Source of the DNA: Pseudosulfitobacter pseudonitzschiae
GTDB taxonomy: Bacteria > Pseudomonadota > Alphaproteobacteria > Rhodobacterales > Rhodobacteraceae
Direction of reading: 5' to 3'
DNA length: 64,000 nt
NCBI RefSeq assembly: GCF_002222635.1
Contig: NZ_CP022419.1
Coordinates: 124,001 to 188,000, forward strand
Position 1 is the first letter of the stretch. Every line of letters starts with the position of its first letter. Made by a program: the position numbers and the translations under genes. This document shows positions 54,606-63,839 of this stretch, one piece after another. The notes under the pieces were generated by a model. That model was not told the origin of the DNA. It worked only from the letters and a program-made list of their open reading frames with translations, and ran no database searches.

Positions 54606-56618
54606 CTATCGCGCAACCAGCCTTTCACCATCCTCCTCTCGCAGCATCGCTTCCATTTCGTCCAAGCCATCGACTGCAGAGCGCATCTGCGCCTCATCAG
54701 CTACGCTCGCAGCTTCAGAATCCACGACGCCGCTGCCAAAATCCATCTCCATCTGGCGCTGTTCCTCGGCGATGACGGCTTGAACGACAGGCGCGGTCTT
54801 CTTTGGAGCGGCGTCGGCTTGGCCTGACGGTTGACCATCGCCAGCCTGGCTCGCCCTCTCCACATCGGCTTCTGTTCCCCCTGGCCCATCCGACGGCGGC
54901 GTCATCGGCATGGCGCGCACACTCAGCGGCAGCGTGCCTTGCGATCCCCCTCCCCCCGGCTCTGGAAACGGCAATTCACCCGTCTGCGCCGCGTGGATCG
55001 CTTTGAACAGCCGGTCGTCAAAATACTGAATCCGCTTTGCACGGACCGGCATCTGCGCATCGATCACCATGACGATCTCGTCGAGCGGCAGGCGGCGCGC
55101 CTCGTCTTCAGGGAGCAAGGAGCTTTCTTCGGTCCGGGTCGACTGGCTGCGCCCTTCAAAGGGGTTCTTGCCGATGGACTGGGATCGCGTGATGACGGTC
55201 TTCGTGGTCTTGCCAACCGCCTTGCTCAGCTCTTCGACGGTTTTTTCATCCGAAGGCGTGAGATAGAGTTTCACGCCCGCGTTGCCCTGCAGGGCGCGGC
55301 GGGTGTTCTCGCCGTAGATTTCATCGAGGGCGGGGATGGTTTGGGTGACCACGGCCAAATGGCCGCGATAGGTACGCAGGGTCTCGATGCTCTCGACCAC
55401 GATGGGCATCTTGCCGAGGCGATTGAACTCGTCGAGCATGATCATCACTGGCCAGGGTTCATCCGGCCCGGGATCCTTTTCCTGCATGGCCGAGAGCAGG
55501 TCGGAGAAAAACAGCCGGATCAGCGGCGCGAGCGGCTTCACCATCAGCGGCTGGACCACGAGATACACCGAAAAGGGTTTCTTGCGGATCGTGCGGAAAT
55601 CAAAGTCCGACACGGACGTCGCCTCATCGATGGCCGGGTTCTGCCATTGGTCGAGCCCCGAGGTCATCAGGAGCGAAACATAAGAGGTCAGCGTGTCATT
55701 GTTGGTGGACGCCAGCCGGGTGAAGATAAGCTTGGCGGCCCTGTTGTCGACCTCGTGGCCGCGCGCGAAGTATTCCTTCTGCTTGTTCCCGCCCGAGGCC
55801 GCGATGCGATAGATCTCGCCCAAGGTGGGGCGCTTGCGCTGGAAGGCCAGCAGGCCTGCCGCCACGAAGAGATCGATCCCGCCCTTGAGGAGGCCCTGCA
55901 CCCGGTCGTTGTCGCTCTGCAGGAAGAGCGTCGCGAGAAGCTGCAATTCCATCTGCTGGCGCGCGGGATCTTTCAGTTGATAGAGGCGCAAGAGCGGGTT
56001 GTAGCGATGCGTGCGCTTGCCCTCCCAATCGGTGGGGGCAAAACGATAGACCTTGTCACCTTGGGCGGCGCGGTGCCGGGCCGTGGCCTCGAAACACTCG
56101 CCCTTCACATCGAGCGTCACGGCGGAGCCTTGCCAGGTCAGCAGGTTCGGAATGACGAAGCCCGTGGTCTTGCCGCGGCCCGTGGGCGCCACGATCAGCG
56201 CATGGGGGAAAACCTTGGAGCAGATGTAATTGGCGCGGGAGCCCGGCGGCCCCAGCTTGCCGAGGATGAACCCGGTCCCGGGCGCCCCGAAGAAGCCATT
56301 GGCCTTCATCTCGCGCGGGGTCTGCCAATGGGTCTGGCCAAACCGTGTCAGGGCGGACCCCGAGAGGGCGAGGCTTAGCATCAGGCCGGCGGCGGCGAAG
56401 CTGCCGATGATCAGGTGAATAAGTTGCGCGTCCTCCGGGCGGCGATCGAGGATCGCCAGATAGTTCTGCGCGATATAGGCAAAATCGATCTCGGCCCCGA
56501 AGCCGAGATCCTGGTAGGTCAGCACCGCCGAGGCGATGGTATAGCCCATGGCCCCGGTCACCAGCGTCACCAGCAAGACGCCGGTTGCGATCCGCGCTTT
56601 TCCCATGGAGGCGCTCAA
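54606..56618 (-). CDS. virD4: VirD4/TraG coupling protein
   Basis: A 670-aa coupling ATPase that brings the relaxase-DNA complex to the channel. Two N-terminal spans (TGVLLVTLVTGAMGYTIAS; LIIGSFAAAGLMLSLALSG) precede Walker A in LIVAPTGRGKTTGFVIPNLL near residue 145 and Walker B in WPVMIMLDEFNRLGKMP near 393. The C-terminal 130 residues are Pro/Gly/Ala-rich and poorly conserved. TTG at 56618 overlaps the relaxase stop (TTGA); the ATG at 56606 is an alternative. GC content is higher than in the virB operon. Confidence 0.92.
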   Translation of the reverse strand: MSASMGKARIATGVLLVTLVTGAMGYTIASAVLTYQDLGFGAEIDFAYIAQNYLAILDRRPEDAQLIHLIIGSFAAAGLMLSLALSGSALTRFGQTHWQTPREMKANGFFGAPGTGFILGKLGPPGSRANYICSKVFPHALIVAPTGRGKTTGFVIPNLLTWQGSAVTLDVKGECFEATARHRAAQGDKVYRFAPTDWEGKRTHRYNPLLRLYQLKDPARQQMELQLLATLFLQSDNDRVQGLLKGGIDLFVAAGLLAFQRKRPTLGEIYRIAASGGNKQKEYFARGHEVDNRAAKLIFTRLASTNNDTLTSYVSLLMTSGLDQWQNPAIDEATSVSDFDFRTIRKKPFSVYLVVQPLMVKPLAPLIRLFFSDLLSAMQEKDPGPDEPWPVMIMLDEFNRLGKMPIVVESIETLRTYRGHLAVVTQTIPALDEIYGENTRRALQGNAGVKLYLTPSDEKTVEELSKAVGKTTKTVITRSQSIGKNPFEGRSQSTRTEESSLLPEDEARRLPLDEIVMVIDAQMPVRAKRIQYFDDRLFKAIHAAQTGELPFPEPGGGGSQGTLPLSVRAMPMTPPSDGPGGTEADVERASQAGDGQPSGQADAAPKKTAPVVQAVIAEEQRQMEMDFGSGVVDSEAASVADEAQMRSAVDGLDEMEAMLREEDGERLVAR

Positions 56619-58954
56619 TGGACCTGACCCCGCTCGGTCTCGCCATCCACGTCTGTCGCGCGGTGTTTTTCATATTCGGTGTCGGCAAGATCATCGACCA
56701 CCTGGCGCAAGGCCTCCGTGTTGGCCGTCGGTGCATCCGATTGCAGGTAAACCTTGGCGACATAGAGCCGGTCGAGACGGTCCTCGAGAACCTTTTCCAG
56801 CGCATCGGCATCGCCGGATGTGAGCCGCTCAAGTTGACGGTTATCAAGCACCCGCGCGATCTCGTCGCGGAAGGCGTCCCGCTCCGCCTCGGTCTCGAAG
56901 GGCGCGGACAATTCCCCGGCCCGCTCATGGTCCACGACACGCGCAATCTCGTCTGCAAGGCGGTCGGCACGGTCAGACCGCATCGGCGTTCCATCGCGGG
57001 TTGCGAGGATGTCGTCGCGCGTGCCAACCCCAAGCCCGTCGCGCATCTCGGTTTCGCGGCGGACCTGATTGATGGCCTCCGTGTCCCGGATCTCGACGAC
57101 AGCCGCATAGGTCGCGCCGAGCCCGCGGGCGAGGTGGGACGGCATGTCCGGATAGCGCTCCCTGAATTCATCCGTGACAGCATCTGCAACGGGCGTGCGG
57201 ACGTCGCGTCCCTCCATGATCCGGTCGACCTCGCGGGTGATCTCGCTGGCGCGGGCCGCATCGGTGATGGTCTCCCTGTAAGGCTCAGACCGGTCAATCA
57301 CATCGCCAGGGCGTGCGAGCAGATCCGGGTGTGCCTCGAGATACGCGCGCTGCTCCGTCTCGATCCGGCGCTCCGCCCGTGAGACCACTTCCCAATCCCG
57401 GTCCTCCACCTGCTGCGCGGTCAGGCCGTCGGCGCGCATCTCCTGACGGATTGTTCCTTCCATCGCCCGCACCGCGCCCTCATGATAATGGAACCGCTCG
57501 CTGACCGCTTCCGCTTCCATGACACCATCCCGGCGCAGCACGTTCTCCCGTTCCAGCAGCGTGCCAAGCGCGACATGCACATCGTTGAGAACGTCGCGCG
57601 CCTGTTCCAGATCAGCGCGGCGTTCAAGGTTCAGATCCCGCGCCTCGGCCACCTTGGCGAGATCATTGGCAATCCATTGATGCTCGAGCGCTGCATTTGA
57701 GGCGCCCGTCTCGATCCGGGCCACCACTTCCGATGTGCTGATCCCGGTGCCCCGTAGTGCCGCGTCAATGCGCGATCTCAGGTCGGGCTCGGCCAGTCGC
57801 TCGCGCTGGCTGGCGTCAATATTGGCTTCGGAATAGATCCCGCCCTCCGAGGGGGTCTCTGAAAGCGTGGATGATCGCAAACCGAGAGGCTGCATGTGCT
57901 GGACCTGCGTCTGGATCTCGATGAGACGTTTTTCCAGCACGGGACGTTCCGTGTCGGACTTCTCGGCGATCATGCCCTGCACCCGCGCCAGCTTCTCCGC
58001 ATAGAGGCTTCTGAGATCCTCGAAACTCTGATCCTCGGCCATATACACATCTCCTGTTCGGTCCACCTGCCCGCCGCGCGCCAGCACCTCGCCCGCGCGG
58101 AAGAGTGCCGCGGCAATATCCTCGCGGGCCTCCCGGGAGGCCTCCGCGGCAAGCGAATGGTAGACGGTTCTGGTGTTGGCGATCTCCGCCAGCGTCCGGG
58201 TCAGGTCCTGCCCCACGCGTTCGCGCTCGCGGGGCGCGCGACCCTCTTCTTTCGCGGCGTAGACCTCGCGGGTAGGGGCTGGGTAATGCACAACCCCGCG
58301 ATCCACCCGGCGCGTGGCTTCCAGCCGCACGCCATACTTCTCGGCCTCCTCGACCATGGCGAGGCGAAAATCATCATAGTTGAAGCGGTGATTGCGGCCG
58401 AGGAAGAAGAACTCGCCTTCTTGCGAGCGGCGGTTCAGCACCAGATGCGCATGGGGGTGATCGCGGTCCTCATGCACCGCGATGATGTAGTCGAAATGCC
58501 CCGCGTCGGTCTGGAAGAACCGCTCGGCCACATCCGTCGCGATGTCGCGCACATCCTCCCCGCGCGTGCCGATGGGGAACGACATGAGCATATGGGTCGT
58601 CTGGCCCAGCTTGGGCTTGAAGCCCGCATCCCACCGCTTGGCAAAGCGCTCGGTGAGGTCCTTGATGTCGCCCGCCTCGAGCTTCGCCTTGCCATCCAGG
58701 AACCCGCTACTGTCCACGATATGGGTGGACTTGGTCGTGAGGTAATCGAGCTGGTTTGCGAGCTGCGATTTGGTATGCGTTCCCCCGCCCCGGATCGCCT
58801 TGAAGACTGCTGGCCGATGCCCTGCTGCCGCGCGCACAAGCTGGGTCTGCTTGGCCACGTGCAGCCCCTGCATTGAGCCCCGGACGCGGCTCCAGCCATC
58901 CCGAAAGACCTCGCCCGTGACGGCATGGACGGCATCATTCAGCTGCATGCGCAA
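56615..58954 (-). CDS. Conjugative relaxase (VirD2/MobP-like)
   Basis: A 779-aa protein. The relaxase domain is in the first 250 residues: TKSQLANQLDYLTTKSTHIV (with a candidate catalytic Tyr), GQTTHMLMSFPIGTRGEDVRDIA, and the metal-binding His cluster VHEDRDHPHAHLVLNRR near 160. The remaining 500 residues are charged and helical with repeated RxE-rich stretches, much longer than a minimal MobP relaxase, and have no helicase motifs. It would nick oriT and pilot the strand through VirD4. It overlaps mobC by 20 bp. Confidence 0.88.
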   Translation of the reverse strand: MRMQLNDAVHAVTGEVFRDGWSRVRGSMQGLHVAKQTQLVRAAAGHRPAVFKAIRGGGTHTKSQLANQLDYLTTKSTHIVDSSGFLDGKAKLEAGDIKDLTERFAKRWDAGFKPKLGQTTHMLMSFPIGTRGEDVRDIATDVAERFFQTDAGHFDYIIAVHEDRDHPHAHLVLNRRSQEGEFFFLGRNHRFNYDDFRLAMVEEAEKYGVRLEATRRVDRGVVHYPAPTREVYAAKEEGRAPRERERVGQDLTRTLAEIANTRTVYHSLAAEASREAREDIAAALFRAGEVLARGGQVDRTGDVYMAEDQSFEDLRSLYAEKLARVQGMIAEKSDTERPVLEKRLIEIQTQVQHMQPLGLRSSTLSETPSEGGIYSEANIDASQRERLAEPDLRSRIDAALRGTGISTSEVVARIETGASNAALEHQWIANDLAKVAEARDLNLERRADLEQARDVLNDVHVALGTLLERENVLRRDGVMEAEAVSERFHYHEGAVRAMEGTIRQEMRADGLTAQQVEDRDWEVVSRAERRIETEQRAYLEAHPDLLARPGDVIDRSEPYRETITDAARASEITREVDRIMEGRDVRTPVADAVTDEFRERYPDMPSHLARGLGATYAAVVEIRDTEAINQVRRETEMRDGLGVGTRDDILATRDGTPMRSDRADRLADEIARVVDHERAGELSAPFETEAERDAFRDEIARVLDNRQLERLTSGDADALEKVLEDRLDRLYVAKVYLQSDAPTANTEALRQVVDDLADTEYEKHRATDVDGETERGQVH

Positions 58955-59528
58955 ACTCCCTCAGCGCGGCCGTGGCCTGCAGCTGCATTGCGTCCCGACG
59001 GCGGCGCAGAAGCAGATCGATCTCGTCAGCGGAGTCCAGGATGAACCGCGCCAGCCCGCGCATCTGCGCAAGGCGCAATTCGGTGAACTCGGCACTCGTG
59101 CCGCCCCCTGCCCCCTGCCCCCGCCGGTTGGCCTGCGTCATCTGCTTGGCGATCTGCGCGACCCCATTGCCGACCTCGTGCAGCGAGGCGCGATAGCGCG
59201 CCATCTCAGCCGCCATCTGCGCGTCCGGGACAAACACGCCACCCGCCGCCTGAATGAGCCGCCGCAACCCCTCGGCCCGGCTCTCGATCCCCGCCTTCGC
59301 CAACACCTCGTCGAGCGCCGCCAGCTCCGCAGCCGTGACCTTCACACTGACCGCCGAGACCGGGATCGCGGCATCGGCCTGGCGCTCGGCATCAGCTTTC
59401 AGGACGTAGCGCACGGCCCGCGATGTGACCTCGAAACGCTCAGCCAGCTCGGACGTCGACACACCCTCCGCGGCCTCGCGGACGATCTGCATCTTCTCGA
59501 TCTCTGTCAGGCGTTTTGTTCGGGACAT
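58935..59528 (-). CDS. MobC-like relaxosome accessory protein
   Basis: A 197-aa DNA-binding protein. The N-terminus has an HTH (KMQIVREAAEGVSTSELAER and FEVTSRAVRYVLKA), followed by a MobC-like helical part with AAELAALDEVLAKAGIESRA, EVGNGVAQIAKQMTQANRRG and a charged C-terminus. Such proteins bind near oriT and help the relaxase. The ATG at 59528 is the likely start. The oriT-like inverted repeat is 35 bp upstream. Confidence 0.78.
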   Translation of the reverse strand: MSRTKRLTEIEKMQIVREAAEGVSTSELAERFEVTSRAVRYVLKADAERQADAAIPVSAVSVKVTAAELAALDEVLAKAGIESRAEGLRRLIQAAGGVFVPDAQMAAEMARYRASLHEVGNGVAQIAKQMTQANRRGQGAGGGTSAEFTELRLAQMRGLARFILDSADEIDLLLRRRRDAMQLQATAALREFAHAAE

Positions 59529-59562
59529 GCGGAAGAAAGACCCCCTATTTCCTGCCACCTTC

Positions 59563-59647
59563 ATACAAGGCTGCACCTACCATACGAAACTATACTAATC
59601 TGTCAATAATATACTTACGGTGATTAAGGGCGCAGGCAGCCTTGTAT
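59563..59647. other. Candidate origin of transfer (oriT)
   Basis: A perfect 12-bp inverted repeat, ATACAAGGCTGC (59563-59574) and GCAGCCTTGTAT (59636-59647), encloses an AT-rich stretch with ACTATACTAA and AATATACTTA. Position next to mobC and the relaxase, the inverted repeat and AT-rich core are the usual oriT features. The nick site cannot be read. Confidence 0.6.
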
Positions 59648-59749
59648 TCCGTTTAACGCCGAGCACCGCAGGTGCGAGGCCGCGCCCGAGAGGGCGCCAA
59701 CCAACACCAGCCACAGGCTCTAACATGGGCCGCTCTCAACAGTGTCCGC

Positions 59750-60100
59750 GCCTGATGTCTGTCTGAACATGTAATGTTCGGACGGAAACGAAGGGGCGGG
59801 ACAAACCCCCAGCGACGGGGCTGACAGACAGGGTCAAGGGAGGCCAGAATTGGCGTGCCAATTCTCTGCCGCAAAAACCTGAAGGCATCGCCGATCGGTT
59901 TTTGGGGATGGCCCCCTTGAGGCTGGCTGGCGGCTCTGTCACCGCGCAGGGTCAAATACAACAGGAACCATCAGGACTGCATTGCAGTCCTGTCACCCGG
60001 AACCGTGACCGCGGCCTATGGCAGAGGTCTCAACGGACCGCACAGCGATCTCTGGAACAGAGATAGGGCCGCCTAACGGCGACCCATCCTCGGGGAGGAT
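59750..60100 (+). ncRNA. Hairpin-dense block, candidate structured RNA
   Basis: At least seven helices can be drawn: 59758-59770/59774-59786 (13 bp); a closing helix 59822-59828/59935-59941 around hairpins 59846-59865, 59873-59903 and 59904-59915; 59972-59992 (10-bp arms); 60011-60019/60063-60072 around 60026-60039; 60048-60064; and 60086-60100. The internal imperfect pairs in the 13-bp and 60026 helices are U-G on the plus strand, which favours a plus-strand RNA. A direct repeat CAGGGTCAA occurs at 59829 and 59947. No convincing gene is present. It could also be folded single-stranded DNA of the plasmid leading region. Confidence 0.45.
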
Positions 60101-60307
60101 TTACTCTTGGGGTTCCTTTGAGCTTGGTGGGAACATCACCAGCTCTTGGACGCCGACGGGGAAGTCGAGCTTGAGGCTGAAGAACTCCGAGCCATCCCCG
60201 TTGCGGGTGTTGCGAAACATGGCGCCGACGCGTTGGAAGCGGGTGCGCTCCTGGCCTTCGCCATCGGTGTATTTGACGGGAACTGTTGCGACGTAGTGGT
60301 TGGTCAT
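60101..60307 (-). CDS. Conserved small plasmid protein, function unknown
   Basis: A 68-aa protein reading MTNHYVATVPVKYTDGEGQE, then RFQRVGAMFRN and FFSLKLDFPVG. A strong ribosome site, AAGGAGAGACTAAA, precedes the ATG, so it is surely translated. The beta-rich pattern (YTDxxGxERxRFxRVGxxFxN...SLKLD) resembles small proteins seen beside plasmid transfer genes, remotely like DUF736. It sits between two hairpin-rich non-coding stretches. Confidence 0.75.
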   Translation of the reverse strand: MTNHYVATVPVKYTDGEGQERTRFQRVGAMFRNTRNGDGSEFFSLKLDFPVGVQELVMFPPSSKEPQE

Positions 60308-60667
60308 TTTAGTCTCTCCTTTTTGCGATGAGGATCAAAAAGCACGGGGCATCAGGACCGGTCGCAAGCGCAAATGCGGAGGGTCCGCGCCACAGGCGTG
60401 GAAGCCGTATTTGTGCTTGCCGGAGCGCAGCGTAGGGAACGGCCGGTCCGACCCCATGCGATCCACATCAATGAGCAAAAAGAAGAGACCAAAATGTTTG
60501 CCCCCACATCGCAGTCGCCACGGTTCTCGTTGATCTCGATGGAGGTGAAAGTCGGGTGCGCTCTGATGCAACGTGTTGAGGTTTGGTCTGTCGCGCGCAT
60601 CGAAAGGCAGGGCGGTTGTTCAGCCTCGGGCGAAGATCAATTTCTCGGTGTTGAGATGGTTGTGATG
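60308..60667. other. Spacer with a nested stem structure
   Basis: No protein gene is convincing here. At 60355-60449 GGACCGG pairs with CCGGTCC, and inside it AAGCGCAAATGCGG (60366-60379) pairs with CCGTATTTGTGCTT (60405-60418) over 14 positions, two of them G-U on the plus strand, with a small CGCC/GGCG hairpin at the tip. The stretch lies upstream of the small gene at 60101. Confidence 0.4.
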
Positions 60668-61744
60668 TTATCCGCACCAAGCTTGAGGACGCGGAGGACA
60701 GCTGGTCCGGCCGCACCGGTATGGCACGGCCAGTCCTTCCCCAACTAGAGTGCGTCCAACATCCTGACCGTCTACGAACAGCGATCCACATAGGCGTCCA
60801 AAGTTACAACGGTCAGTACCTTCGGTTCCGGGCCTGCACGAACATGCCACGCGTTCAAATTCTATCGATACCGCATTCCGCACCAGTTGGCTCAAACGCG
60901 CCGTTGCGCGTTCCCCGACCTGACGCTCTGCAGCGCAGGAAGGCCGCCACGTCTCAGGAGCATTGAATCCGACAAGGCGTACGTTCGCCGGCAGCCCGCG
61001 AATATCGACGGTATCACCGTCGATGATCCGCACATCGCTTGAACGGAGGGTCCGATCCTGTGCTGTAGGTTGCGCCACGGCCGGCCCATTGAGAGACAAG
61101 AAGCTGGAGGACATCCAGCCGGTTCCCAAGTCAGACCTAATTTGCGCCCATTGTCCTTGGTCACGAAGCAGTTGAACCTGTGTGCCTTCAACCAGAACGC
61201 CCATGACCCGATCAGACGTGGACGGCCCGTCCCGTTGATTGACCCGTGTCCCCGTCACATAGACGTAAGTTCCGCTCGTCGTTTGCGGTGCGGACGTCGC
61301 TAGTGGGCTGTAGGATGTGGATCGCGATGATGTTGTATCGGACAAAGATCCAATCAGCGCGAAGAACGCCACCGCAATAACGAGCGGCACCATGATTTGT
61401 CGCTGAGCCCTACGGACCGCCCGCCGCGGTGCAGTGATTGCACGGGTTACAGACATCGGTCGGGTTTTTGGTTGGTAAGATTTGGTGCTGCGCTTCGGAG
61501 CCGGACGCGGAGGGCGTTCGTTGGCCTGAGATGAGGTCCGCGATGATGGCTCACGTTCCAACTTCAGGGCTTTATGCAGGCTGGCATATTGGGCCTTACT
61601 CAGACGTGTTTCGGTTCCGTACTGCTGAAACCGCGCGGCCATGTTCGTGAGAAACGACACCTCCCAATCGTTCGCCTGCCCAGACTGCAAACGCGCATCA
61701 ATGCGCGATTGAATCTCTTTGGTGCGGTCTGGAGAAAAGGGCAT
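60668..61744 (-). CDS. Membrane-anchored SH3 plus thermonuclease-domain protein
   Basis: A 358-aa protein: basic, disordered N-terminal part, one span (IMVPLVIAVAFFALIGSLS near residue 130), an SH3_3 domain (VTGTRVNQRDGPSTSDRVMG to TGWMSSSF) and a C-terminal SNase-like domain (DVRIIDGDTVDIRGLPANVRLVGFNAPETW, CAAERQVGERATARL, CGSLFVDGQDVGRTLVGEGLA). Several SNase residues are in place (Asp-Gly-Asp-Thr and FNAPET), though the third catalytic region is rearranged with extra Cys. It could trim cell wall-bound or incoming DNA. ATG at 61744 has a weak ribosome site. Confidence 0.75.
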   Translation of the reverse strand: MPFSPDRTKEIQSRIDARLQSGQANDWEVSFLTNMAARFQQYGTETRLSKAQYASLHKALKLEREPSSRTSSQANERPPRPAPKRSTKSYQPKTRPMSVTRAITAPRRAVRRAQRQIMVPLVIAVAFFALIGSLSDTTSSRSTSYSPLATSAPQTTSGTYVYVTGTRVNQRDGPSTSDRVMGVLVEGTQVQLLRDQGQWAQIRSDLGTGWMSSSFLSLNGPAVAQPTAQDRTLRSSDVRIIDGDTVDIRGLPANVRLVGFNAPETWRPSCAAERQVGERATARLSQLVRNAVSIEFERVACSCRPGTEGTDRCNFGRLCGSLFVDGQDVGRTLVGEGLAVPYRCGRTSCPPRPQAWCG

Positions 61745-61978
61745 CGACTGAAAAACCTGCGCGCATGATATGCTGTCCAACAAAAGTCATTTGTGGCGCG
61801 GACACAATAGACAGGGATTACATTGAGATAAGGTCAAGCTAATCGCAAAACGGGAAAATCGCACATCCACCGTCATGACCTAAATGAACCCTTGCTGCAG
61901 ACCATCAACGTGAATCTGAACTTGGACCCATGCTTTTGAGAACGAAGGAAGGGCCACCCGAAGGTGACCCTCTCTGAC

Positions 61979-62908
61979 TTATGCTTCTGCCTTCTCCTTC
62001 GCTGGATCCGCGACTCGCATCACCGTCAGACCCTTCGCTTCGGCTTTCTGGCCGAGGTTCAGTGCGACCCCGTTGCCTCCAAAGAGGACAACTCCCGTAG
62101 CGGCGAACTTATCGTCCAGCATCTCATCGTTGCACTTGAAGGGTGCCGCGCGTCCGTGTGCGGACCAGCGCGGATCAAAGCGCGCTTGATTGATACCCCG
62201 CGCACGTGCCCACCGGGCCGCGATCATTTCCGCCCCATGCTTGCCGCCTTTGTGGCAGAGGAAGATATCTTGATTGCGGTTTTGCTTAATGCGGTCGCGC
62301 ACCTTATCGAGTGTCTGGAAGATGACATCGATATCTGTCCAATCGGTTGCACCAGAGACGATCAGCGGCACACCTTCGACTTTCGACTTGGCGGCAGTTT
62401 CCCGATCATGCTGCTCCAGAAGCTGCTTGGCCTCGAAGACGGCTCCCGTCTCTTGCGCCCGAACGCTGGCGCGCGATCCCGCTGCCGGGATGAAGGCATT
62501 TCCTGTCTCTACCTCGTAGCACTCTGCAGCGGCCTCCCCCATCGTCTCGATGGCATCCACGATCTCGCGCAATTGCACGAAGCGCGCTTGCGCCTCTTCC
62601 AGTGCGGTCTCTGCGATCTCTGATCCATCGTGGCATTTTGCCAATGCGCCGATCTTATCGGCTGTGCGGTCGACTTCCTTACCGAGGGCAACCTTGCGGC
62701 GCTGCAGGATTGTCGCCAACCCGTGCGCGAGAGGTTCGATCTCTCCTTCAAGTCCGGTATTCCGCAATTGCCCGAGCAGGGTCTCGAAGGCTTCGCGGAT
62801 GATGCTGTCTTTCAGGATATCGTCCTGCGGGATTGGCAGGTGTGCATCTTTCTCCGTCAGGCCGAAGAGTTCGATTGTCTCGTATGTTGTCGCTTGATCG
62901 TAGGCCAT
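61979..62908 (-). CDS. DUF2493-domain protein
   Basis: A 309-aa protein starting MAYDQATTYETIELFG after TTGGAGATGAACCC. The first 180 residues are helical and charged (KEVDRTADKIGALAK, AQARFVQLREIVDAIETMGE). The C-terminal part (VPLIVSGATDWTDIDVIFQTLDKVRDRIKQ, FLCHKGGKHGAEMIAARWARARGI, VVLFGGNGVALNLGQKAEAKG) is the Rossmann-like DUF2493 domain, often plasmid-borne and distantly akin to SLOG/DprA-type nucleotide- or DNA-binding folds. Its role is unknown. Confidence 0.8.
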   Translation of the reverse strand: MAYDQATTYETIELFGLTEKDAHLPIPQDDILKDSIIREAFETLLGQLRNTGLEGEIEPLAHGLATILQRRKVALGKEVDRTADKIGALAKCHDGSEIAETALEEAQARFVQLREIVDAIETMGEAAAECYEVETGNAFIPAAGSRASVRAQETGAVFEAKQLLEQHDRETAAKSKVEGVPLIVSGATDWTDIDVIFQTLDKVRDRIKQNRNQDIFLCHKGGKHGAEMIAARWARARGINQARFDPRWSAHGRAAPFKCNDEMLDDKFAATGVVLFGGNGVALNLGQKAEAKGLTVMRVADPAKEKAEA

Positions 62909-63839
62909 GGGTTCATCTCCAATGTTTGAGTTTGATGACCACCACGTGAGTGTGGGGGCATGGCCGATTTCTGGTTCACCGAATCTGTTCGGGTCAGGGA
63001 CGGCGTAGCCGCCAGCTTGCTGGGCGCAAAAGTTTTCCAAGCGCCGCTGCTCACAACAAGCGCACCCTCACGCGCGCGACTGACCCCCCCACACAGCCAA
63101 CTCTCGCCGAAAAGTTTTGCGATCCTTGAGGCGGGCTGATTTGGGGGCCATCCGGAGGATATGCTTCCATACTCATGTGTGTGTGTTTTGACGCAAGGTT
63201 TGCCCGACGCGAGCAGGCAAGCGGTGGGAGTGGGACACGCAGGCGGGTGCAGCGGCGGGATCGTTTTGCCTCGGCAAAACAGACCAGAGCGAAGACCGCA
63301 GGCGTGGCCGAGACCCGCCGTGCTCGCGAGACGGGCAAACCGGGACCCACAGTGCGACATCGCGGTAAGGCCGCATGGCCGCATGCGCGACGGACCGCAG
63401 GGCCGTTCTCACCTGTGACACGCGAAGCCGAGCAGGTGAGGCCGTTAGGTATTGCGTCAGGGGTTCAGTTGATTGGCGAGCACGTCGGAGCGGACTTTGA
63501 AATTCTATCGCTAAAGGTCAACAGCGCGGACGAAGCTGACTTTAACTCCGCGAAGATCAATGGCCGCATTTAATGGGGGCATATTTAGAGAAAGCACCTC
63601 GGGTGGGAACTGGGCCTCCGAGTCGAAAGTCACTTTCCCTTTTGGTCCATTTAAAGTCCCCACTTCGGGGAACCATTTCAATCGGCAGGACTTCATCCCA
63701 ACGACAGAACAGCCCAAGAATTTGAAAAAGGAGGGCGTCAAAATTTCTTGGCGCAATGAGCCCCACTGGCAGTGAAGGTTAGGACAGTAGTCGACAAACC
63801 GAGACCAGCGCGTCTTAATGATGCTGTAGGGAGAGCAAA
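62909..63839. other. GC-rich spacer, no recognised gene
   Basis: About 930 bp with frames in several phases but no ribosome site or family match. Two symmetric elements stand out: GTTTTGCC-TC-GGCAAAAC at 63263-63280 and CTCACCTG (63408-63415) with CAGGTGAG (63433-63440). From 63560 a plus-strand 71-codon frame (MAAFNGGIFREST...) and overlapping minus-strand frames are all plausible-looking and unsupported. Confidence 0.4.

Follow-up and report, generated by a model that had tools for sequence, protein, structure and literature searches.

Plasmid F carries two single-stranded DNA promoters, Frpo1 and Frpo2, reportedly described by Masai and Arai in 1997. A second kind of folded DNA on the transferred strand (T-strand), the ssi or primosome assembly site, starts synthesis of the complementary strand. 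On the incoming strand of F, Frpo1 and Frpo2 form folded structures that contain -10 and -35 boxes; they sit upstream of leading-region genes such as ssb, whose early expression needs them (PMC9849209). Anti-defence genes gather in the leading region (PMC11541004), and ArdC is required in the recipient (PMC7213743). A literature search, with preprints and most subscription papers lying outside it, returned no paper on Frpo in Alphaproteobacteria or on single-stranded DNA promoters of Rhodobacter plasmids, and the words 'oriT' and 'non-coding' are absent from the main text of a paper on conjugation in Dinoroseobacter shibae (PMC4886583). Here we describe two conserved structured elements, E1 and E2, beside a predicted oriT, and we propose, with a probability of roughly 0.62, that they are leading-region single-stranded DNA elements acting like Frpo promoters (or as priming sites), and not a plus-strand RNA.

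The window, by which we mean the whole 64,000-nt stretch of DNA analysed, lies on contig C5 of a Roseobacteraceae-type genome. Its transfer genes lie on the minus strand: a VirD4-type coupling protein (54606..56618; Pfam T4SS-DNA_transf, 5.7e-85), a MOBP relaxase of MobA/VirD2-like type (56615..58954; Pfam Relaxase, 2.5e-13) and, upstream of the relaxase, a helix-turn-helix (HTH) protein (58935..59528; Pfam HTH_23 at the cut-off), whose frame is open back to 59576 and whose gene is labelled 'transposase' in some public records. A block dense in hairpins lies in the gap between the HTH gene and a conserved 68-aa gene, also on the minus strand (60101..60307; 95% mean column identity in 10 sequences) and DUF736-like by its relatives. 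Further into the leading region, still on the minus strand, Pfam identifies a protein with bacterial SH3 and SNase-like nuclease domains (60668-61783) and, as the next conserved gene, a DUF2493/YAcAr protein (61979..63040). The 68-aa protein of the window has no Pfam match, and for a relative of 71 aa the DUF736 score is 16.5 bits, short of the 22.1-bit cut-off. A search of PDB with its predicted structure (pLDDT 80, pTM 0.46) gave no match at E<=0.001; the top matches were SSBs, with E about 0.1 and TM 0.2-0.4, which we do not count as evidence.

Relatives of the block occur in 154 of 72,556 plasmid records (170 for the wider interval 59400-60500), 147 of the 154 being typed as conjugative, and the family to which the window belongs has MOBP/MPF_T systems of Alphaproteobacteria. 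We gathered 112 sequences with the 68-aa gene, the window being included and both its own second copy (L001) and L008, which lacks the gene, being left out; the alignment is based on the 98 distinct sequences, and one set of relatives consists of the best 80 of 200 loci. The HTH gene is on the same strand as the 68-aa gene in 106 of the 112 sequences, with a gap between the two of 494-583 nt in 105 sequences and of 380 nt in one (L032). No relative of the 68-aa protein was found in viral contigs among 53 pattern matches. Using covariance models of E2 (R1) and E1 (R2), we found matches in 36 and 37, respectively, of 196 genomes of the order, and in two and three of 289 genomes in a scan of the whole class, the strict filters of which may have lost weak matches; beyond the window's genome and one family member, that scan returned only G508, from another family (R2, 33 bits, E=1.2e-4). 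Among 100 fetched loci, some of which went into building the models, E1 was matched in 97 (the exceptions being L032, L082 and L094) and E2 in 99 (the sequence of L045 ends there, and the copies in L075 and L064 are damaged). For the 69 loci fetched by the 68-aa protein alone (L034-L102), the counts are 67 and 68. One locus, L043, is from Nitratireductor, and the family is thus not wholly restricted to Rhodobacterales.

Several individual copies are worth recording. A second set of E1 and E2 lies on another contig of the window's own genome (G000:C8:14673-15437). Most of E1 is missing and E2 is kept in L032 (Phaeobacter inhibens P72) and in L094, which are possible natural tests of E1. E2 is in two pieces about 1.2 kb apart, as if by insertions, in L075:934-2508 and L132:3859-5383. 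In Litoreibacter arenae (L073:2851-3055), the inner domain of E1 seems to be inverted between its closing arms, and the E1 model scores higher on the opposite strand (129 bits) than on the expected one (100 bits).

A near-invariant nick-like site of the VirD2/IncP type, TATTTCCTG/CCA, lies on the plus strand 190 nt ahead of E1. Across the 98 sequences, none of the 15 consecutive columns from 59543 to 59557 (CCCTATTTCCTGCCA) falls below 98% identity, and here we predict a nick-site core, CCCTATTTCCTG/CCA (59543..59557, plus strand), which we take to resemble the nick sites of RP4/IncP oriT and of T-DNA borders. The nick is predicted from sequence to fall between 59554 and 59555, such that 59555 would be the 5' end of the T-strand; in that case the plus strand would be the one transferred, with E1 and E2 as the earliest structured DNA to reach the recipient. 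An oriT inverted repeat with perfect 12-bp arms (59563-59574 and 59636-59647) follows the core. Between the arms, on the minus strand, is a promoter-like match, TTGACA-16-TATGGT (59606-59579), that is likely to be the promoter of the HTH-relaxase operon.

A first-pass annotation had described 59750..60100 as a hairpin-dense non-coding block near oriT and a candidate structured RNA. The block does fold: for 59650-60100 as RNA, z is -6.9 (plus strand) or -5.2 (minus strand), with none of 100 shuffles as good on either. As to its extent, the core (59745-59945, mean pairwise identity 0.833) and a group of hairpins at 60048-60100 are conserved, whereas 59946..60043 between them is poorly conserved (mean pairwise identity 0.545). 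The core is E1, and E1 and E2 are two islands of conservation amid diverged stretches, the others being 59691-59744 (identity 0.515) and 60510-60580 (0.572). E1 (59745..59945, plus strand), which is supported by covariation, wobble asymmetry, folding energies and model matches, has two parts: a hairpin on its 5' side (59751-59795), with 59758-59786 as the inner stem, and a multibranch domain, closed by 59814-59831/59923-59940, within which lie hairpins at 59846-59865 and 59869-59907. E2 (60301..60506, plus strand), supported by covariation, wobble asymmetry, DNA folding and model matches, is outside the annotated block; it is a near-continuous stem of about 200 nt over the RBS and start codon of the 68-aa gene, with a mean pairwise identity of 0.855-0.888 (60308-60496) and a left edge that falls in the conserved gene start (identity 0.949). 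Folded as DNA, E1 has z = -7.6 on the plus strand and -3.6 on the minus strand, with 0 of 200 shuffles as good, and E2 has z = -7.1 and -6.7.

Both elements covary. In E1, 15 of 69 pairs have both sides changed in an alignment of 21 of 23 representatives (L073 and L094 did not align and were left out), giving 60 both-side-changed cells against 19.8 (sd 3.5) in shuffles; in E2, the figures are 13 of 76 pairs and 52 cells against 18.2, from 31 of 32 representatives (the partial L110 was left out). None of 500 shuffles reaches the observed count in either element, although these shuffle counts are not probabilities, since the sequences are related. When the partners are slid by 1-3 columns, paired cells drop from 94-95% to 32-51%. 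Covariation across homologues was the check that had been suggested for the block, and it bears out a conserved structure; a coding explanation, which would have undone it, is rejected, because there is no conserved reading frame in E1 (the best of six frames is stop-free in only 63 of 97 copies) and the lengths of its copies spread over all three classes mod 3. The three tandem hairpins just past the stop of the 68-aa gene (60048-60064, 60066-60085 and 60086-60100) covary more weakly, with 25 both-side-changed cells against 12.3 in shuffles (0 of 500) and shuffle ranks of 61/500 for the number of both-side-changed pairs and 450/500 for pair types. They have one terminator-like match per strand (two found, 1.2 expected), and may be the terminator of the 68-aa gene. 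GNA-type triloops were considered as a DNA signature, with CGCAG present in 84 of 98 sequences at the first hairpin (59667-59671); because the E1 hairpin loop is mixed, this signature was dropped.

We reasoned about which strand folds from the wobble pairs, an A-C on the plus strand being a would-be wobble on the minus strand. At strand-neutral pairs, plus-strand G-T outnumbers A-C both in E1 (45 vs 11 cells, 16 vs 4 pairs, p=0.012) and in E2 (57 vs 20 cells, 22 vs 9 pairs, p=0.029); the hairpins at 60048-60100 have no strand preference (16 vs 27 cells, 4 vs 4 pairs). In all 98 sequences, G-T and A-C number 239 and 153 at the shared pairs of the 59650-60105 alignment and 204 and 40 at those of E2, and the minus-strand structure of E2 is still G-T-rich (205 vs 138). 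Among the individual wobbles on which the first-pass annotation had relied, 59760/59784 is well conserved (T-G in 78 of 98 sequences), 59764/59780 is T-G in 15 sequences, the window among them, but C-G in 80, and 60030/60035 falls outside the consensus structure. Conserved wobbles in E2 are 60370/60414 (G-T in 88 of 98), 60376/60408 (92) and 60387/60399 (92). By RNA and DNA energies alike, 96 of 97 copies of E1 and all 97 copies of E2 fold more stably as the plus strand, with mean differences between strands of 12 and 23 kcal/mol against a standard deviation of 10.4 kcal/mol for random 205-nt pieces of the window. Kinship among the sequences inflates these strand counts. Diverged copies, compared for the 12 of 15 E1 and 11 of 17 E2 matches with a gene alongside, behave similarly: the plus strand is more stable in 12/12 for E1, and in 9/11 (RNA) or 10/11 (DNA) for E2. 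Wobbles and folding energies thus point to the plus strand as the functional one, in keeping with the earlier description of a plus-strand structure near oriT. It is very improbable that the elements are leaders of minus-strand mRNAs, sites for proteins on double-stranded DNA (cruciforms), or dispersed hairpin repeats with no role in transfer. The minus strand too folds better than shuffles, and such a role would accommodate the inverted and the weak E2 copies described below, but a minus-strand RNA would have A-C mismatches where the plus strand has conserved G-T pairs (60376/60408, for example), and neither an mRNA leader nor a double-stranded site would explain a strand preference in both elements.

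The first-pass annotation had taken its wobbles to point away from DNA sites and toward an RNA of the plus strand. Since the predicted T-strand is this same strand, wobbles on it cannot separate RNA from single-stranded DNA, and that reading is not supported. A structured plus-strand RNA would show the same wobble preference, whether it is a free non-coding RNA (about 350 nt) or a set of short antisense RNAs that lie over gene leaders and repress those genes in the donor, and E2, which overlaps an RBS and start codon, would be antisense to an mRNA leader. In our pattern scan, no plus-strand promoter turned up ahead of E1 or of E2, the sole plus-strand match being a weak one (9/12) inside E1 (59821-59850); E2 has its 5' end within a gene, so a promoter for an E2 RNA would have to be in coding sequence. 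There is, moreover, no Rfam match at gathering scores in the whole window. We consider a plus-strand RNA quite improbable, also in view of the spacing of the diverged copies of E1, which stop 59-66 nt short of the ardC start, such that an antisense RNA would leave that start uncovered. On the gene-sense strand, canonical -35/-10 boxes were not found in 97 copies of E2: the best match is 6/12 in 71 copies, 7/12 in 25 and 8/12 in one, and shuffles score higher (12 at 6, 52 at 7, 28 at 8 and five at 9). The scan likewise found no minus-strand promoter match in E1.

The diverged copies lie antisense before particular genes. Eleven of 17 diverged E2 matches have the start codon of a DUF736-like (six), DUF736 (three) or SSB (two) gene at an offset of -13 to +5 nt from the end of the element, and 12 of 15 diverged E1 matches are 59-66 nt before ardC (nine) or a gene of one 102-aa family (three); the other six E2 matches and three E1 matches are not beside the genes sought. 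Pfam supports the identity of the neighbours (ArdcN, 1.3e-39; SSB, 1.1e-8; DUF736, 3.6e-15). The neighbour-gene queries were picked after viewing the neighbours, and the constant spacing is the less biased part of this result. Left out of these counts were, for L132, the main-family E1 and two rows of its interrupted main-family E2, together with a 9.3-bit L129 row and 15 E1 rows below 25 bits. The contigs with diverged E1 (0.13-3.0 Mb) mostly carry HTH, relaxase (about 49% identical) and virD4 genes; their size and gene content lead us to call them integrated elements. Wherever such a locus has both E1 and the HTH gene (eight of eight), the two are on opposite strands. In all eight integrated-element loci compared for the nick-like core, CCCCTATTTC(C/T)TGCCA occurs at the matching place beside the HTH gene, and an inverted repeat follows the core, as in the window.

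Other E2 matches fit this picture less well. Of the diverged E2 copies, 11 share a contig with a relaxase or HTH gene, and four of these would be on the non-transferred strand if the geometry of the window holds there: G195 4537+, G276 22111+, G170 3332+ and G130 1621-, all before DUF736-like small genes. These inverted copies (L126:4537-4736, L129:3112-3312, L130:3332-3530 and L128:1621-1823) run against the direction of the rest of their leading regions, and they are not explained by a T-strand model. Weak E2 matches (35-41 bits) in L133, L135, L136 and L138 are on large contigs, match best in the apical part and have none of the sought genes beside them; to judge from these matches, they are perhaps a dispersed hairpin repeat.

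The first-pass annotation had also allowed for a folded single-strand promoter or origin, and the antisense position of sister copies before the start codons of early-establishment-type genes makes this the better supported of its two suggestions. We propose that the relaxase nicks the plus strand at 59554/59555 and that this strand would enter the recipient 5' end first, with E1 and E2, 190 nt and about 750 nt from that end, folding into long stems on it. By analogy with Frpo, the E2 stem would be a double-stranded start for RNA polymerase or primase, from which transcription on the T-strand template could run back toward the nick through the 68-aa gene. The 68-aa gene reads toward the predicted nick, and its template would be the predicted T-strand. 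From the small gene up to record position 79,000, pDSHI03 has 19 annotated genes, of which 11, including the first three, are T-strand-templated; four adjoining SOS/polymerase genes are not. Sister copies would serve SSB, DUF736 and ArdC genes likewise, each early gene having a T-strand element of its own. In the window, no gene lies between E1 and the nick-like core; there E1 more probably yields a primer for synthesis of the second strand or, once the ends have rejoined, transcription that reads through into the HTH/relaxase operon.

If E1 and E2 were ssi sites, the folded T-strand would load primase or the primosome for the complementary strand and would have no promoter role. Evidence from strand and place is the same for ssi sites as for promoters, and both the lack of canonical boxes in E2 and the geneless E1 of the window would suit them. 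Against this, each gene has an element to itself, which covers the start codon or ends shortly before it, at constant spacing in diverged copies; this points to expression of that gene, and several copies per element would be redundant for priming; we regard a purely priming role as unlikely. Counting against Frpo-like promoters are the absence of boxes from E2, the absence of homology to F, the four inverted E2 copies among 11, the diverged matches that are not beside the genes sought, the genes of pDSHI03 that are not T-strand-templated, the plus-strand promoter-like match inside E1 and, again, the geneless E1. On the Frpo-like reading, E1 and E2 belong to one family of structured elements on Rhodobacterales conjugative plasmids and related integrated elements. 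Chances are about even that this is an undescribed family of single-stranded DNA promoters, unrelated in sequence to Frpo and without -35/-10 boxes, in which each early gene (DUF736-like, DUF736, SSB or ArdC) has its own T-strand element. If so, the use of incoming single-stranded DNA for early expression, demonstrated in F and suggested for related plasmids, reaches beyond enterobacteria; given its hundreds of homologues, its strong covariation and its lack of canonical boxes, such a family would mean that the trick arose or diverged outside that group. The covariance models would then be a route to finding such elements, which would mark genes (DUF736-like, SSB and ArdC) that act first in a new marine host and would make it testable how a polymerase or primase reads a folded strand that has no standard boxes.

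Our elements resemble Frpo in being long, stable stem-loops of the predicted T-strand with conserved structure (in both E1 and E2), and in occurring in more than one copy. If the predicted nick is right, they would also share its place in the leading region and, apart from the four inverted E2 copies, may share its position upstream of ssb and other leading genes with the T-strand as template. By the annotation of F, its genes read back toward oriT, the position of which we assume, as the 68-aa gene reads toward the predicted nick. They differ in that E2 lacks the canonical -35 and -10 boxes present in Frpo and overlaps a start codon, and in belonging to MOBP/MPF_T systems of Alphaproteobacteria, F being MOBF. 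In the 23-kb leading region of F, there is no covariance-model match to E2, and the E1 model reaches only 11.5 bits (E=0.085). Lacking two features that define Frpo, the boxes and homology, E1 and E2 are not counted as members of that group. Their likeness to ssi sites is drawn from the description of those sites, not from sequence. Frpo-like candidates in anti-defence islands were sought with five known Frpo/ssi sequences together with TTGACA/TATAAT, in a study whose main text does not contain the word Alphaproteobacteria (PMC11541004). Those islands, as described there, likewise have ArdC- and SSB-type leading genes with structured regions upstream, as do the relatives of E1 and E2.
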